In this document: positions 2,617 through 59,305 of the stretch, in pieces
Numbering within the stretch: position 1 is the stretch's first letter
How the letters are laid out: the number at the start of each line of letters is the position of its first letter
Made by a program: the position numbers and the translations under genes
NCBI RefSeq assembly: GCF_016772475.1
Contig: NZ_CP068595.1
Coordinates: forward strand, 1,550,001 to 1,614,000
Direction of reading: 5' to 3'
Length of the DNA stretch: 64,000 bases
DNA from: Paenibacillus sonchi
GTDB taxonomy: Bacteria; Bacillota; Bacilli; Paenibacillales; Paenibacillaceae
The notes under the pieces: model-generated
Told to the model about the DNA's origin: nothing
Seen by the model: the letters and a program-made list of their open reading frames with translations, nothing else
The model's database searches: none

Positions 2617-2676
2617 AATTGCTTCTGTACCATTCCGCACGCTACAATCACAGAGCCATCGGGCCTGCGGCGCTCT

Positions 2677-2856
2677 AACAACGGTATTTTTGCCGTTGTT
2701 TCGGGGCAAACCGGCCTGCGGTGCTTCAACAACGGTATTTTTGCCGTTGTTTCGGGGCAAGCCGGCCTACAATGCTCCAACAACGGTATTTTCTGCCGTT
2801 GTTTTGGTGCACGCCGGCCCGCGATGCTTTAACAACGGCATTTTTGCCGTTGTTTT
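2677..2856. repeat. four-unit 51-bp palindromic repeat array (family A)
   Basis: Four copies of an inverted repeat, AACAACGG-yATTTyTr-CCGTTGTT, begin at 2677, 2728, 2779 and 2831, spaced 51, 51 and 52 bp. Each could form an 8-10 bp hairpin with a short T-rich loop. The 27 bp between hairpins is also similar from unit to unit (GGGGCAAGCCGGCCTGCGGTGC type). The same family recurs at 38197-38478. Because 51 is a multiple of three, an open frame crosses the array, but it has no ribosome-binding site and is not called a gene. The array fills the gap between the convergent RidA and GGDEF/EAL genes. Confidence 0.9.
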
Positions 2857-7159: not shown

Positions 7160-7360
7160 CTCGCGGAGACCGGGGGCGACCGGCGGTACGGTCAATGCGT
7201 GGTGCTGCGCGTATGGCGGCAGCACGAAGTCGCGGCAGAGGCGGGCGGCTCTGTGCGCGGCAACGCAGACAGGCGGCTCCTCCACTCCGCTTATTCCTTT
7301 TCCTTTCCTTGCAGTTACCCAGCCCAATTGGAGAGACATCTCTGCGCTAATTGCACTTTC

Positions 7361-7535
7361 TACAATTATTCGGAACAAACGAGCTCCAAAATGAGCAATA
7401 AGTGTATTTCGTACAATTAAAGATCAGCTTTTCCCTCCAAATCGGTTTTTTCAAAGAAAATAACTGTACAGAATACAATTAAACTAGTAACTAAGAAGAA
7501 ACCCTGCATTGTAGTTGTACGAAATACAACTCCCC
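7361..7535. repeat. TACAATT-type intergenic repeat cluster (family D)
   Basis: Related elements with core TTTCGTACAATTAAA occur at 7361 (TACAATTATTCGG), 7412 (CGTACAATTAAAG) and 7474 (ATACAATTAAAC), with an inverted copy near 7511-7530 (GTTGTACGAAATACAAC). The first two cores are 51 bp apart, the same step as the other intergenic arrays here. The cluster lies between the LacI and DinB genes. No coding potential or known element is recognised; 7160-7340 shows nothing else. Confidence 0.6.
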
Positions 7536-7576
7536 CCTGGCGCAACTGTCATTATGTAAAATCGCCCCCCTTTTCC

Positions 7577-7624
7577 GGGCGTTCGGGCGTTCGGGCGTTC
7601 GGGCGTTCGGGCGTTCGGGCGTCC
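7577..7624. repeat. GGGCGTTC octanucleotide tandem repeat
   Basis: Five perfect head-to-tail copies of GGGCGTTC (7577-7616) are followed by a sixth with one change (GGGCGTCC) and a degenerate seventh. The tract ends about 45 bp before the DinB start codon, where a promoter or 5-prime UTR would be. Its 8-bp unit makes it prone to slippage. Confidence 0.9.
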
Positions 7625-7669
7625 AGGCGTTCCGGCATTTCTAAATAAATCGAAAGGCAGTGAAGGCGA

Positions 7670-8134: not shown

Positions 8135-8211
8135 ATTGAGCTTTTCGACCGATTTATGGGATATCTGCTGCAGAAACTGCAATAGATATCGCATGCCGTG
8201 GTTCTAAATGC

Positions 8212-13598: not shown

Positions 13599-13673
13599 AT
13601 TGACTCCTCCTAAAAGCTTTGTGAGCTTAAGCATCCTCCGAACCGCTTCGTACAAAACTGGCTTCGGAAGCAT

Positions 13674-13750
13674 AGGCTTAAGTTTTGTGCGCAAAACCTT
13701 TTTTCGTACGCATACGCTTAGGTTTTGCGCAGCAAAACCCTTCGTAAGCC
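13674..13750. repeat. two ~40-bp units with GGTTTTGC/GCAAAACC hairpins
   Basis: CATAGGCTTA and CATACGCTTA (13671, 13711) mark two units 40 bp apart. Each is followed by an inverted repeat: GTTTTG/CAAAAC at 13682-13697 and the perfect GGTTTTGC-GCA-GCAAAACC at 13721-13739. They lie between the binding-protein and permease genes of the operon and might stabilise or process the mRNA; function is not established. Confidence 0.65.
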
Positions 13751-16608: not shown

Positions 16609-16808
16609 ACAGCGATTATAACAAGGGTTCACAACTTTGACAAGAGATTTTTTTAAACGCTTACATTGGAAAATCACGGTCAAGATACACCCATCCTGTA
16701 CCAGCTTATACTATCCAGATGTTATATGATTCCACCGGAAAGTGAACCCGGCAGTTAGCATTGTCCATTTTTGAAAACCTTACCGGCACCCATTCTTCAT
16801 CGACTTGC

Positions 16809-16858
16809 GGATTTATGGACTTGAGGATTTATGAACTTGAGGATTTATGGATTTGCGG
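16809..16858. repeat. 16-bp tandem repeat in intergenic region
   Basis: GGATTTATGGACTTGA-type units start at 16809, 16825 and 16841, with a partial fourth. They lie in the 460-bp gap between the divergent LacI and flavin oxidoreductase genes. The rest of the gap is AT-rich and shows no gene; promoters for both genes must lie there. Confidence 0.8.
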
Positions 16859-17036
16859 AATCGGAATCCCTCTTCTCATACAACCTATAATACCTAAAGG
16901 AAACTGCCTTCTCCAAGATATCTGCTTACTTAAAGTGTGTAAATAATAATATTTCATGTTATAATGGCCGGGTAGATTACTTCCGCACTGCAAATACTGG
17001 TTATTCATAGAAATATTCATTCAGGAGGGATTGTTG

Positions 17037-18137: not shown

Positions 18138-18370
18138 TTGCATCATTACCCAACGGGCAGACAGCCACAGTTTAGTTAATGAAACACTTTGTGGAATAAA
18201 ACAGGTCCGGCTGTATATTCAACTTCCTCTCTCCTACCACGCTTTAACCCGCATAAAACCAGGGTGGGATCATCACCGGGTATGTTTTTTAGCCATACAC
18301 CTCCACGGCAGCTCAAAGAATCCAAAATATTCTCCCGCTGCCGCAATGAAGCTCATCAAAAACTGAAGCT

Positions 18371-18760
18371 AAGTGGAAAAAGTAAAACTAATTCGCTGAA
18401 ATCCGGGCTTCTGGCGGTTTTAGTTGGATTTTGTCCACCTAATTCATGCCAATTGGCCCCACACGGCTGCTTTTGGCCGAATTAGTGGTACTTTTTCCAA
18501 CATAAGATACTCCATACGCTGAATGGGTTCGATTAGTGGTACTTTTTCCAACATAGGTTACTCCATACGCCAAATGAGTTCGTTTTGTGGTACTTTTTCC
18601 AACATAGGTTACTCCATACGCCGAATGGGTTCGATTAGTGGTACCCTTTTCCAACATAGGTTACTCCATAAGCCGTATGGGTTCGTTAAGTGGTACTTTT
18701 TCCAACATAGGATACTCCATAAGACGAATGAGTTCGATTAGTGAACCTTTTTCCCGCTAA
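18371..18760. repeat. 51-bp repeat array, mixed families B and C
   Basis: Two forward units with core TGGAAAAAGTAAAACTAATT or a variant start at 18374 and 18425 (51 bp apart). Six inverted units with core GTGGTACTTTTTCCAACATA follow at 18485, 18536, 18587, 18638, 18690 and 18741, spaced 51, 51, 51, 52 and 51 bp. The remainder of each inverted unit (GGTTACTCCATACGCCGAATGGGTTC) is also conserved. The reverse complement of family B shares GGAAAAAG-N4-ACTAAT with family C, so the two are related. No gene is credible in it. Confidence 0.9.
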
Positions 18761-27050: not shown

Positions 27051-27099
27051 AAAAAGCGGTTCAACCTGATCTCTCCAGATCCGGTGAGCCGCTCTTTTA
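27051..27099 (+). terminator. probable terminator of the MATE gene
   Basis: AGCGGTTCA (27055-27063) pairs with TGAGCCGCT (27085-27093, one G-T pair) with an inner GATCT/AGATC stem, followed by CTTTTAC. The surrounding sequence is also open in one plus-strand frame up to 27185. Confidence 0.65.
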
Positions 27100-37972: not shown

Positions 37973-38196
37973 TCTCTCCGCCTCCTTGTTCCGATACCCC
38001 GGGGGCCGGTTGCCTGAGTAACCGGCCAGCACAGCCGAGGCCCAGGTTTCCGTACCGGTAGTTCCGGTAATGCTAGTTTCCGTGCTGCCAGTAATCGGCA
38101 GCCGATAAACTAATTGTAGTATAGCCCGGACCCCGGGTCCAGACTCCCGCCCTTCAGCTTGAGCATGGGCAAAAGCAAACCGGCCACTAATTCTTC

Positions 38197-38478
38197 AACA
38201 ACGGCATTTCTACCGTTATTTCCAAGCAAACTGGCCGCCGCACCTCCAACAACGGCATTTCTACCGTTATTTCCAAGCAAACTGGCCGCCGCACCTCCAA
38301 CAACGGCATTTCTGCCGTTGTTTCCAAGCAAACTGACCGCCGCACCTCCAACAACGGCATTTCTGCCGTTGTTTCCAAGCAAACTGACCGCCGCACCTCC
38401 AACAACGGCATCTCTGCCGTTGTTTCCAAGCAAACTGACCGCCGCACCTCCAACAACGGCATTTCTGCCGTTGTTTCC
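38197..38478. repeat. six-unit 51-bp palindromic repeat array (family A)
   Basis: Inverted repeats AACAACGGCATTTCTGCCGTTGTT or close variants begin at 38197, 38248, 38299, 38350, 38401 and 38452, exactly 51 bp apart. The intervening sequence (TCCAAGCAAACTGACCGCCG type) is almost identical between units. One unit of the same family is found in the array at 2677-2856. A 17-residue repeat (TTAFLPLFPSKLAAAPP) is encoded in one open frame, but there is no start signal, and the opposite frames are open too, so it is read as non-coding. It occupies most of the gap 37973-38508. Confidence 0.92.
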
Positions 38479-38508
38479 AAGCCGCCTCCTTAAGGGCAAA
38501 CAAACCAA

Positions 38509-47301: not shown

Positions 47302-47485
47302 GCTGGAAAAAGGTTAACTAATTCGCCCCAGCGCACCTATTCTCCGGTGATGAAGTGGAAAAAGGTACACTAATTCAGCTCATTTCGCCCCAGACGGAGA
47401 AAAGCAGCACAATTAAGCTCCCTTTTTCCACTTAACTCTCACAACTGTTGATTTTTCACAAAAATAAGCTCCCTTTTTCCAACTA
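47302..47485. repeat. 51-bp repeat array in inverted arrangement (family C)
   Basis: Two forward copies of TGGAAAAAGGTTAACTAATTC or a variant (47304, 47356; 52 bp apart) face two reverse copies of TAAGCTCCCTTTTTCCA (CTCCC at 47418 and 47469; 51 bp apart). The pattern is repeated almost unchanged at 58493-58678, upstream of xpt. Located between the exopolysaccharide operon and the K+ channel operon; no gene is present in 47302-47587. Confidence 0.85.
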
Positions 47486-57790: not shown

Positions 57791-58381
57791 TCATTTCTGC
57801 TGTATCCGGATTTCCGATGAAATGGATTTCCCCGGCGACATCGACGAGATTCTGGCCAGTGCATGGACAGCAATACCCCTGTCTTCAAGCAGGCTCCGGC
57901 CTTCCTGAAAGCTTTTCTCGATTACACAGCCCACGCCCAGCAGCTCTGCCCCCGATTCGTTCACAATATCCGCCAGTCCCACCAGCGCTGCCCCCGTAGC
58001 CAGAAAGTCATCGACAATCAGCACTTTATCCCCCGGACCCAGGTACTTCCGCGAGATGCTGATCCGGTAATCCTCCTGCCGGGTGAAGGAATGCACCGGT
58101 GCCGAATAGACGCCTTCGGACTGGGTAACAGCTTTCTTTTTCTTGGCATAAATGAACGGCACTCCCAGCGCAATTCCGGCTGCCATGGCGAACTGGATGC
58201 CGCTGGCCTCAACGGTCAGCACCTTGGTGACTGGCAGATGCCCGAAGATGCGCCCGAACTCCTCCCCAATTTGCAGTGCAAGCTGCGTATCCACCTGATG
58301 ATTCAAAAAGGAGTCCACCTTAAGCACTGTATCCGACAGAATGAGCCCCTCTTCCCTTATGCGTTCCTCTAAAACTTTCAC
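57791..58381 (-). CDS. xpt: xanthine phosphoribosyltransferase
   Basis: A 196-residue type I phosphoribosyltransferase: xanthine + PRPP to XMP. The PRPP loop is VLIVDDFLATGAALVGLADIV; substrate/PRPP motifs VTKVLTVEASGIQFAMAAGIALGVPFIYAKKKKAV. Family proteins begin MKVLEERIREEGLILSDTVLKVDSFLNHQVD, which fixes the start at GTG 58381; GGGAGGGG lies nine bases upstream. The open frame continues upstream to 58477 without such a signal. It is preceded on the same mRNA by a purine riboswitch. Confidence 0.95.
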   Translation of the reverse strand: MKVLEERIREEGLILSDTVLKVDSFLNHQVDTQLALQIGEEFGRIFGHLPVTKVLTVEASGIQFAMAAGIALGVPFIYAKKKKAVTQSEGVYSAPVHSFTRQEDYRISISRKYLGPGDKVLIVDDFLATGAALVGLADIVNESGAELLGVGCVIEKSFQEGRSLLEDRGIAVHALARISSMSPGKSISSEIRIQQK

Positions 58382-58492
58382 GCTGTAAATCCCCTCCCTT
58401 TTCAAGAACTGAACGGCTACGCCATCCTTGACTGAATAAATTTTTAGTTTAGCTATGCCTGGATAACCCTTTATCAATCCTTCGCCGACTCT

Positions 58493-58678
58493 AAGTGGAA
58501 AAAGGTTAACTAATTTGCCCCAGCACCCTGTTCTCCGCAGGTTAAGTGGAAAAAGGTTAACTAATTCAGCTCATTTCGCTCCTGACGAAGGAATATGACC
58601 TCATTAAGTTCCCTTTTTCCACTTAAATCTCTCAATTGTTGATTTTTAGGAGGAATAAGTTCCCTTTTTCCACTTAGC
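58493..58678. repeat. 51-bp repeat array in inverted arrangement (family C)
   Basis: Two forward copies of AAGTGGAAAAAGGTTAACTA (GTGGA at 58495 and 58546, 51 bp apart) face two reverse copies of TTCCCTTTTTCCACTTA (CCC at 58611 and 58662, 51 bp apart). It is nearly identical in layout to 47302-47485. It lies inside the presumed riboswitch-xpt leader mRNA, between the intrinsic terminator at 58837 and the xpt start, so it should be transcribed whenever xpt is on. Confidence 0.9.
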
Positions 58679-58836
58679 ATTGCTCACCTGCGTCTTACAA
58701 GTGCTAGTTGGAAAACGGCTATCGAATTGGCTAATTTTCATCCTTTTGGGTGAATCCGCTGAATTCGCGTCTGCTTATCCCCAACTTTACAAATATCTAA
58801 TCAACAAGAAAGGGAAATCATCATTTCCTAAACGGC

Positions 58837-58880: not shown

Positions 58881-58992
58881 CTTCTGGGTTTTTGTCCCTT
58901 AGCGGTGTAACACATACCTGTGTCCGCATCGCTTGGACCAGCCTCTCTTATGCCATGGCATAAAAAAACGGAACCCTAGATGCGCTATTTCA

Positions 58993-59061
58993 CTCATAGT
59001 CGGATAATTGCAATGGTTATCCGGTAGAAACTTATGGGCCTTATTCCCAAGATTATATGAG
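58993..59061 (-). promoter_or_regulatory. purine (guanine-type) riboswitch aptamer
   Basis: The minus strand carries the complete purine aptamer: 5-prime CTCATATAATC, the J1/2 region, AAGTTTCTACCGGATAACC, and GACTATGAG closing P1 with CTCATA. The base before TATGAG in the specificity position is C (CCGACTATG), which pairs with guanine, xanthine or hypoxanthine; adenine riboswitches have U. It is about 610 bp upstream of xpt. Binding of guanine should favour the terminator at 58837-58880 and shut off xpt-pbuX. Confidence 0.92.
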
Positions 59062-59305
59062 TTATATGATAGTCTTTTATTAAAAACCTTCGTATATCTT
59101 ACACGCTCGGTACGATCCATACAAGCAAAATTTTAAATATTTTCAGGAGTTTTCCCTTCCTTTCATAGGAGTTTCATTTTTGTTCAAAAATCAGGGCCGC
59201 TGGGCTTCTGCTGGTTTATCTTCCTGCGGCACCCGGATTGCTCACCCTTCCCGGCTGAACGCATTAATGGTAAGGGAACCTATATTTACGGGAGGAATGA
59301 GGCGG

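Follow-up and report, generated by a model that had tools for sequence, protein, structure and literature searches.

Intergenic dyad arrays on a common 51-bp step in Paenibacillus sonchi: possible phased sites for dimeric DNA-binding proteins

Introduction

Several gaps between genes of Paenibacillus sonchi hold short repeat arrays with different core sequences and the same distance between units, 51 bp. Why would arrays with different cores share one period? The question arose in a 64-kb part (1550001-1614000) of the 7.78-Mb chromosome, hereafter the window, whose xpt-like protein has its closest relative, among the matches listed, in Paenibacillus jilunlii (95%). The original prediction, made from the window alone, described six such arrays with unrelated cores and proposed a common amplification or binding process rather than ordinary tandem duplication. 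In this study, we analyzed the arrays in the window, in samples of the chromosome and in related genomes. We give about even chances to the reading that they are REP-like intergenic arrays of putative dimer-binding DNA sites held in phase.

Results

Arrays of the window

All six arrays were found in the window, and the spacing of dyad centres confirmed a step of about 51 bp in each. The family A array at 2662-2855 (minus strand) has four dyads, AACAACGG..CCGTTGTT, at steps of 51 and 52 bp; its centre spacing was 51 and then 103, the latter covering a dyad with one extra base. It lies between convergent genes with its GAAA-type centre on the minus (leading) strand. A single D-type dyad (TCAGAGGTATTGTTACCTC) at 2880-2898 marks the site of D arrays in relatives. 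The other family A array, at 38196-38482 (minus strand), has six dyads in five steps of 51. A K element at 7347-7533 consists of four 23-bp dyads spaced 51/62/51, two sites followed by two inverted sites (D D I I). A leftover single K dyad at 8164-8186 has a fuller K element at the equivalent place in the related genome G048.

Three B elements were present. The one at 18371-18754 has extra units, two D and then six I sites, with centre spacing of 51/62/51/51/103/51, in which 103 covers a weaker site; seven of its eight sites (five of the six I sites) scored above the matrix threshold. The elements at 47302-47485 (52/62/51) and 58491-58679 (51/62/51) are both D D I I. Like the K sites and the D dyad, the B elements are given without a strand. 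The element at 58491-58679 is missing at the equivalent place in the related genome G026 and in P. helianthi. It sits in the leader between a purine riboswitch (58977-59080, minus strand) and the phosphoribosyltransferase gene (57791-58405) downstream of it.

All arrays of the window are intergenic, save for a doubtful 107-codon call of a simple gene caller over the 38196 array. Of the site centres, all 169 of family B (169 of 169) and 82 of 87 of family A fell outside called genes, so a 17-codon meaning of the 51 bp has no support. Other repeats were also seen. A further family, intergenic according to the simple gene caller, with AAGTTTTG/CAAAACTT arms and a period of 40 or 65-66 occurs at 13663-13749 of the window and at L066:8141-8419 and L134:990-1120. 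At 7576-7636 and 16802-16859 there are short tandem repeats with units of 8 bp (CGGGCGTT) and 16 bp. At window position 27098, the G048 equivalent has about 560 extra bases inside a methyltransferase-like region (judged by eye), which the window genome is without.

Dyad families and the 62-bp joint

At least four dyad families have the 51-bp step: A (AACAACGG..CCGTTGTT), D (AAAGGTA..TACCTTT), B (GGAAAAAG) and K (TGYA-N5-TRCA). The period is thus kept when the cores differ, and in family C the spacing is mostly 52. In family A, 59 of 61 same-strand pairs were at 51 bp, the others at 46 and 103. Family D, counted in this genome and in the G048 and G026 stretches, was spaced by 51 in 47 cases, 52 in 4, 50 in 2 and 101 in 1. 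Family B gave 80 same-orientation pairs, 59 at 51 and 18 at 52. For family K, 116 intergenic sites of this genome showed pair distances of 51 (26), 52 (18), 62 (16) and 113 (20); with the G048 and G026 stretches there were 145 sites, against 22 sites and no pairs for a reversed control pattern. The first matrix seeds for D and F were discarded since both converged onto A and B. A first K matrix was also discarded because it had lost the core (109 sites vs 16-31 in a permuted control), and a regular expression with the reversed control was used instead.

In B and K, the four-dyad element consists of two sites 51 bp apart, an interval of 62 bp, and two inverted sites again 51 bp apart. The 62-bp interval had been taken for an oddity of the cluster at 7.4 kb; it is instead standard at the D-to-inverted junction of both families. 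Each of the three B elements in the window has it, and 35 of 39 convergent B pairs were at 60 start-to-start, which equals 62 between dyad centres; only 2 B pairs were divergent. Of 57 B loci scored at the matrix threshold, 28 were exactly D D I I, and the rest had missing or added sites. K pairs at 62 stood out in an open distance histogram. Among 18 assembled K elements (3 from G048 and G026), 16 had a centre of 62, with only centre spacings of 58 and 61-63 accepted in the assembly; 30 of 32 more K loci from this and related genomes had it too, these being top-scoring matches and so biased in length. Some K elements, such as L057:13423, have loop directions other than D D I I, which counts against a phased array.

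The cores are not all unrelated, as had been supposed. By eye, B reads TTA-NN-TGGA-N5-TACC-NN-TAA and K reads TTA/TCT-NN-TGYA-N5-TRCA-NN-TAA/AGA. This common 23-bp skeleton makes B and K probable relatives; families A and D look distinct. The skeleton (TTA-NN-TGxA-N5-TxCx-NN-TAA) and intermediate sites in a sister genus (L277, L278) would be expected if an ancestral MITE-like 51/62/51 element had spread and diverged, so that the period was inherited rather than selected. We regard such common descent as improbable, since A and D are without an obvious B/K skeleton and since, at the indel rate measured below, the spacing should have eroded. One B locus does have a clean empty site in G026, with a 3-4 bp overlap, which favors descent from a spreading element; K gave no clean empty site. 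Arrays of A and B adjoin at L136, L049, L067 and L075, with a similar linker in some, which suggests a larger composite element.

The 51-bp period across the genome

The genome was sampled as 20 stretches of 20 kb (18 on an even grid) and as 40 stretches of 20 kb, some on known matches. Self-similarity over 1.264 Mb, coding DNA included and placed partly on known matches, gave 60 clusters at 51 bp, 27 at 102 and 18 at 52, compared with a median of 1 cluster for periods 30-300; the top unrelated period, 180, had 20. Over 464 kb (20 stretches, 18 of them on the even grid, plus the window) there were 19 clusters at 51 and 6 at 52, and most remaining periods had 0-2. With TRF, period 51 accounted for 38 of 92 intergenic arrays with a period of at least 15 in 1.474 Mb, a set that included a further 20 stretches placed on family A arrays, and every other period had at most 5 arrays. 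On the mostly even-grid 400 kb (20 x 20 kb, 18 on the grid), 3 of 13 TRF arrays were at 51 and 1 at 52, so the density of 51-bp arrays is lower away from the chosen places. The observation made in the window thus extends across the genome, with self-similarity in the 1.264 Mb peaking at 51 bp.

Copy number changes in 51-bp steps

Copy number differed between the window genome, G048 and G026 at several loci. The 18371 element has eight sites in the window and five each in G048 and G026, and its length is 154 bp off that of G048. At the 2662-2898 locus, A units number four in the window, eight in G048 and three in G026; the single D dyad of the window corresponds to a 51-bp D array of 13.6 copies (TRF) in G048 and to 4.5 copies at period 52 in G026. 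At L014:16077, there is one D dyad in this genome, nine in G048 and four in G026, and the length is 407 bp off G048, about 8 x 51. The 38196 array is 83 bp off G048, so the differences in length are not always multiples of 51. Copy number thus moves in 51-bp steps, and the arrays do grow or shrink by local tandem duplication or deletion, the very process that the original prediction had set aside. The unusual point is that the step is identical everywhere.

An identical step could come from the copying itself. If an enzyme or replication complex stalled at a dyad duplicated about 51 bp, this fixed-length copying would yield the same period without selection, and the spacing would need no later function. 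At L014:16077 the 51-bp unit of G048 matches the local left flank, the dyad and the local right flank, as such copying would predict, and the length difference there also agrees with it. Since both relatives have arrays at this locus, loss of units in the window genome is no less likely than gain of units in the others. The inverted B and K elements are more than simple duplicates, and copying alone leaves the 62-bp joint unexplained. We consider this the main rival, and an unlikely one.

Array length is kept better than sequence

The spacers between dyads were compared with the dyads themselves. Over 41 A arrays, spacers of different arrays were 51% identical (shuffled, 30%) and those within arrays 87%, and dyads were 91% identical between arrays; the units of this set were picked for a next dyad at +51, the unbiased spacing count being the 59 of 61 given above. 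With a measured intergenic indel:mismatch ratio of 0.105-0.123, each pair of A spacers, if homologous, should differ by 2.3-2.7 indels, against 59 of 61 spacings at 51. In 11 of the 41 arrays the spacers were at most 48% identical to the consensus, and their homology is doubtful; that these still have a dyad at +51, in a set chosen for it, favors the copying of a fixed length.

One orthologous element points the other way. The K element at 7347 is spaced 51-62-51 both in the window and in its ortholog in the related Paenibacillus sp. HW567, with no indel, and the dyads are identical at 81 of 92 positions and the spacers at 59 of 95, so that 38% of spacer bases changed; it is the one well-diverged orthologous K locus. 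This argues against a period set by copying alone. The same element is decaying in G026. When 44 four-site elements were compared, 8 pairs had similar flanks, two of them being the 7347 locus (window/HW567 and G048/HW567) and one a pair of neighbouring L062 elements that are not orthologs. Site and spacer identities were 0.85 and 0.62 for the 7347 locus against HW567, 0.95 and 0.88 for L286/L287, and 0.96 and 0.90 for L263/L264, the last with one 51-to-50 change; the latter two pairs agree with sites being kept better. L265/L292, aligned on one flank only, gave 0.72 and 0.31, and L293/L295 were nearly identical. The close pair window/G048 showed the opposite (sites 86/92, spacers 93/95), which counts against the phased array. 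These results indicate that the geometry is real and is kept better than the sequence.

Duplex sites or hairpins

The dyads could be read as duplex DNA or as single-stranded hairpins. Inner Y/R positions of K showed no covariation (CG 33, CA 16, TG 29, TA 22; P=0.31). In A stems, G.T and A.C were about equally frequent, 29 and 28 in 128 units and 10 and 11 in array consensuses. On folding, the B site that was tested formed no fold alone, and A, D and one of two K sites folded well. Two outer K positions paired above chance (71 and 67 of 100 vs 39 and 49 expected), which could reflect two site subfamilies. The lack of covariation in K, the equal G.T and A.C counts in A and the unfolded B site favor the duplex reading. 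Against it, the strong A and D hairpins and the outer K pairing leave a possible single-strand role.

One form of that role would be as RNA hairpins, transcribed from the arrays and acting at the 3' ends of mRNAs. A and D do fold as hairpins, and 48 of 54 A loci have a leading-strand gene upstream of them. However, A follows replication even where both neighbours are opposed (5 cases) and in all 26 convergent gaps, the K inner positions are without covariation, and Rfam gave no match at gathering score over the arrays. The only such match in the window, the purine riboswitch, does not overlap an array; at 18370-18471 there are two matches far below threshold, which look fortuitous. Covariation, the G.T/A.C counts and the orientation relative to flanking genes all disfavor RNA hairpins, which we judge the least probable of the readings, hardly to be expected.

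Strand and gene context

The sign of GC skew changes in two intervals, 1.63-1.95 Mb and 5.30-5.65 Mb, and leading strands of Firmicutes are G-rich. All 54 family A loci (213 units; 12 single-dyad loci) had one orientation relative to replication, including the 5 with both neighbours opposed and 1 in a divergent gap; two of the 54 (1.65 and 5.40 Mb) lie within the uncertain skew intervals. With the first A matrix, 1 of 87 units was opposite. The A arrays in the G048 (6) and G026 (4) stretches were oriented as in the window genome. In HW567, where replication direction was taken from synteny, 2 of 5 A arrays were reversed, so the rule is not universal. In a hand count of 100 of 205 places, 55 of 59 B sites of type GGAAAAAGG were co-oriented, and type GGAAAAAGT or C showed no bias (20 vs 21).

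Strand-specific centres and hairpin-forming A dyads in one replication orientation at 54 of 54 loci would suit REP/RAYT or IS200/IS605-like single-strand elements mobilised on the lagging-strand template, and the placement resembles that of REPs in the accessible part of PMC3733652. The Y1 transposase family PF01797 was found in 15 of 26 genomes searched and does not track A, B or K elements. It is absent from the K-rich genomes G006, G008, G037, G039 and G074, and only a broken copy was found in G030, which carries A, B and K. The stems show no G.T preference, and the reversed HW567 arrays also disagree. Mobilisation by Y1/RAYT was rejected because PF01797 does not track the elements, and we hold this origin to be very unlikely.

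Placement was intergenic and mostly at gene 3' ends. Gaps with family A were convergent in 26, tandem in 27 and divergent in 1 of 54, compared with 69, 264 and 88 of 421 background gaps longer than 150 bp (simple gene caller in both). K loci of this and related genomes lay in 12 convergent, 13 unidirectional and 4 divergent gaps of 29. A link to one type of gene was dropped because no Pfam family recurred in more than 3 of the K-adjoining proteins (52 of 59 listed proteins scanned).

Distribution and loss in relatives

Family B matched in 24 of 100 genus genomes, six with many sites (24 to 338) and the rest with 1-4; one genome with two B matches (G041) has 51-bp arrays of C type. Family A was found at up to 2 mismatches in 5 of 40 genomes including the window genome (G000), with hundreds of sites only in G000 and G030. 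A arrays also occur in the G048 and G026 stretches, outside these 40, and with altered dyads in HW567. The K model matched in 56 of 100 genus genomes, 51 of which reached 26 scored candidates, and 44 had none; a palindromic element can match once on each strand, and the number of distinct elements is therefore below that of matches. In Bacilli, K matched in 29 of 398 genomes, 12 in this genus and 5 in one other genus of the family; the others comprise one relative from the same order and weak matches, and a few of the printed loci look unrelated. K loci keep 51-62-51 with varied cores. Two CRISPR-like arrays with a period of 64-70 bp were seen in G008 (L100, 3530-8050 and 17062-19900).

With relatedness taken from marker-protein identities, 15 of 15 K-rich genomes tested had the marker at 78% or more. 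Among 11 genomes without a K match, the exceptions were G001 (85%) and G018 (78%). P. helianthi (G027, 96%) had 4 weak matches only. K presence thus mostly tracks relatedness, which common descent would also predict.

In 80 kb of P. helianthi P26E syntenic with the window, periods 51, 52 and 62 were all absent (mean 84% identity over 47 kb aligned, the 38196 place lying outside the alignment). One A dyad and one K dyad were left at two window-array places, three B places were empty, and 24 B sites occur elsewhere in the genome. Since the K element is present in HW567, it is the older state, and P. helianthi has probably lost it. Loss of a maintaining factor may be one explanation. The absence makes those copies look dispensable, which counts against the phased array.

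Discussion

In this study, we found that arrays of several dyad families keep one period and a common layout. A phased array with selection on spacing fits these observations best. The unit would be a 21-26-bp dyad, read as duplex DNA by a putative dimeric DNA-binding protein; alternatively, related proteins of different specificities may read the different families. Neighbouring dyads are separated by roughly five helical turns (51 +/-1 bp), or by roughly six (62 bp) where the direction flips. We propose that dimers bound on one face would bind cooperatively, bending or wrapping the DNA, with a possible effect on genes or the nucleoid. Local tandem duplication or deletion of 51-bp segments would add or remove copies, and selection would hold 51 and 62 while spacers drift. 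That 51 and 62 differ by about one turn fits a helical-phase reading. Against it, 51 bp is 4.86 turns at 10.5 bp per turn, not exactly 5, and our analysis identified no binding protein for the dyads. Of the original interpretation, one period across different cores and the keeping of length over sequence stand, and the exclusion of tandem duplication does not.

The arrays share features with known systems. Like REP, BIME and REPIN elements, they are short, high-copy intergenic palindromes in direct and inverted groups; they are palindromes of 20-40 bp in many copies, and A and K lie in convergent and unidirectional gaps with few divergent ones. REPs carry a GTAG or CGTC tag at one end, according to the available part of PMC3733652. 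By eye, no such tag was found in consensus and unit lists of A, B, D or K sites, and the arrays differ from REP/BIME by fixed distances of 51 and 62 bp across families and by the four-dyad layout. They resemble MITEs (Bcr1, RUP, ERIC) in being small, non-coding, present or absent at orthologous places and inverted in arrangement. No consistent terminal repeats or target duplication were found; the arrays also differ from MITEs in changing size in 51-bp steps, and one K locus is old and conserved while another has only remnants. MIRU and VNTR loci likewise consist of tandem units near 50 bp that lie between genes and vary in copy number, but here several spacers and cores follow one step, the units are dyad-centred and halves are inverted. 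In multi-site dimer arrays such as resolvase res sites and transposon end sites, dyads also lie fixed helical turns apart; the dyads described here are dispersed, many per genome, and no linked recombinase was found.

A CRISPR array was rejected because spacers within arrays are near-alike (identity 0.87, family A) rather than different. A phage or plasmid origin for B was rejected on finding no match in phage or plasmid records for one B element and one B pattern. In titles and abstract starts of an open-access subset of the literature, we found no such arrays described in Paenibacillus, and the accessible parts of PMC3733652, PMC12306157, PMC6006769 and PMC5670726 do not mention them.

More broadly, and only tentatively, related putative DNA-binding proteins may use a rigid 51-bp repeat with a 62-bp two-fold joint, keeping the geometry while their specificity evolves, in Paenibacillus and a sister genus. 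The arrays would then belong to an undescribed, dispensable chromosome-binding system. P. helianthi, with arrays lost in the compared 80 kb and few B sites, offers a natural comparison for a missing factor. The 51-bp copy steps could serve as strain-typing markers. Intergenic palindromes are widespread and their purpose is debated, and a geometry that is kept better than sequence gives a direct experimental handle on them through spacing.
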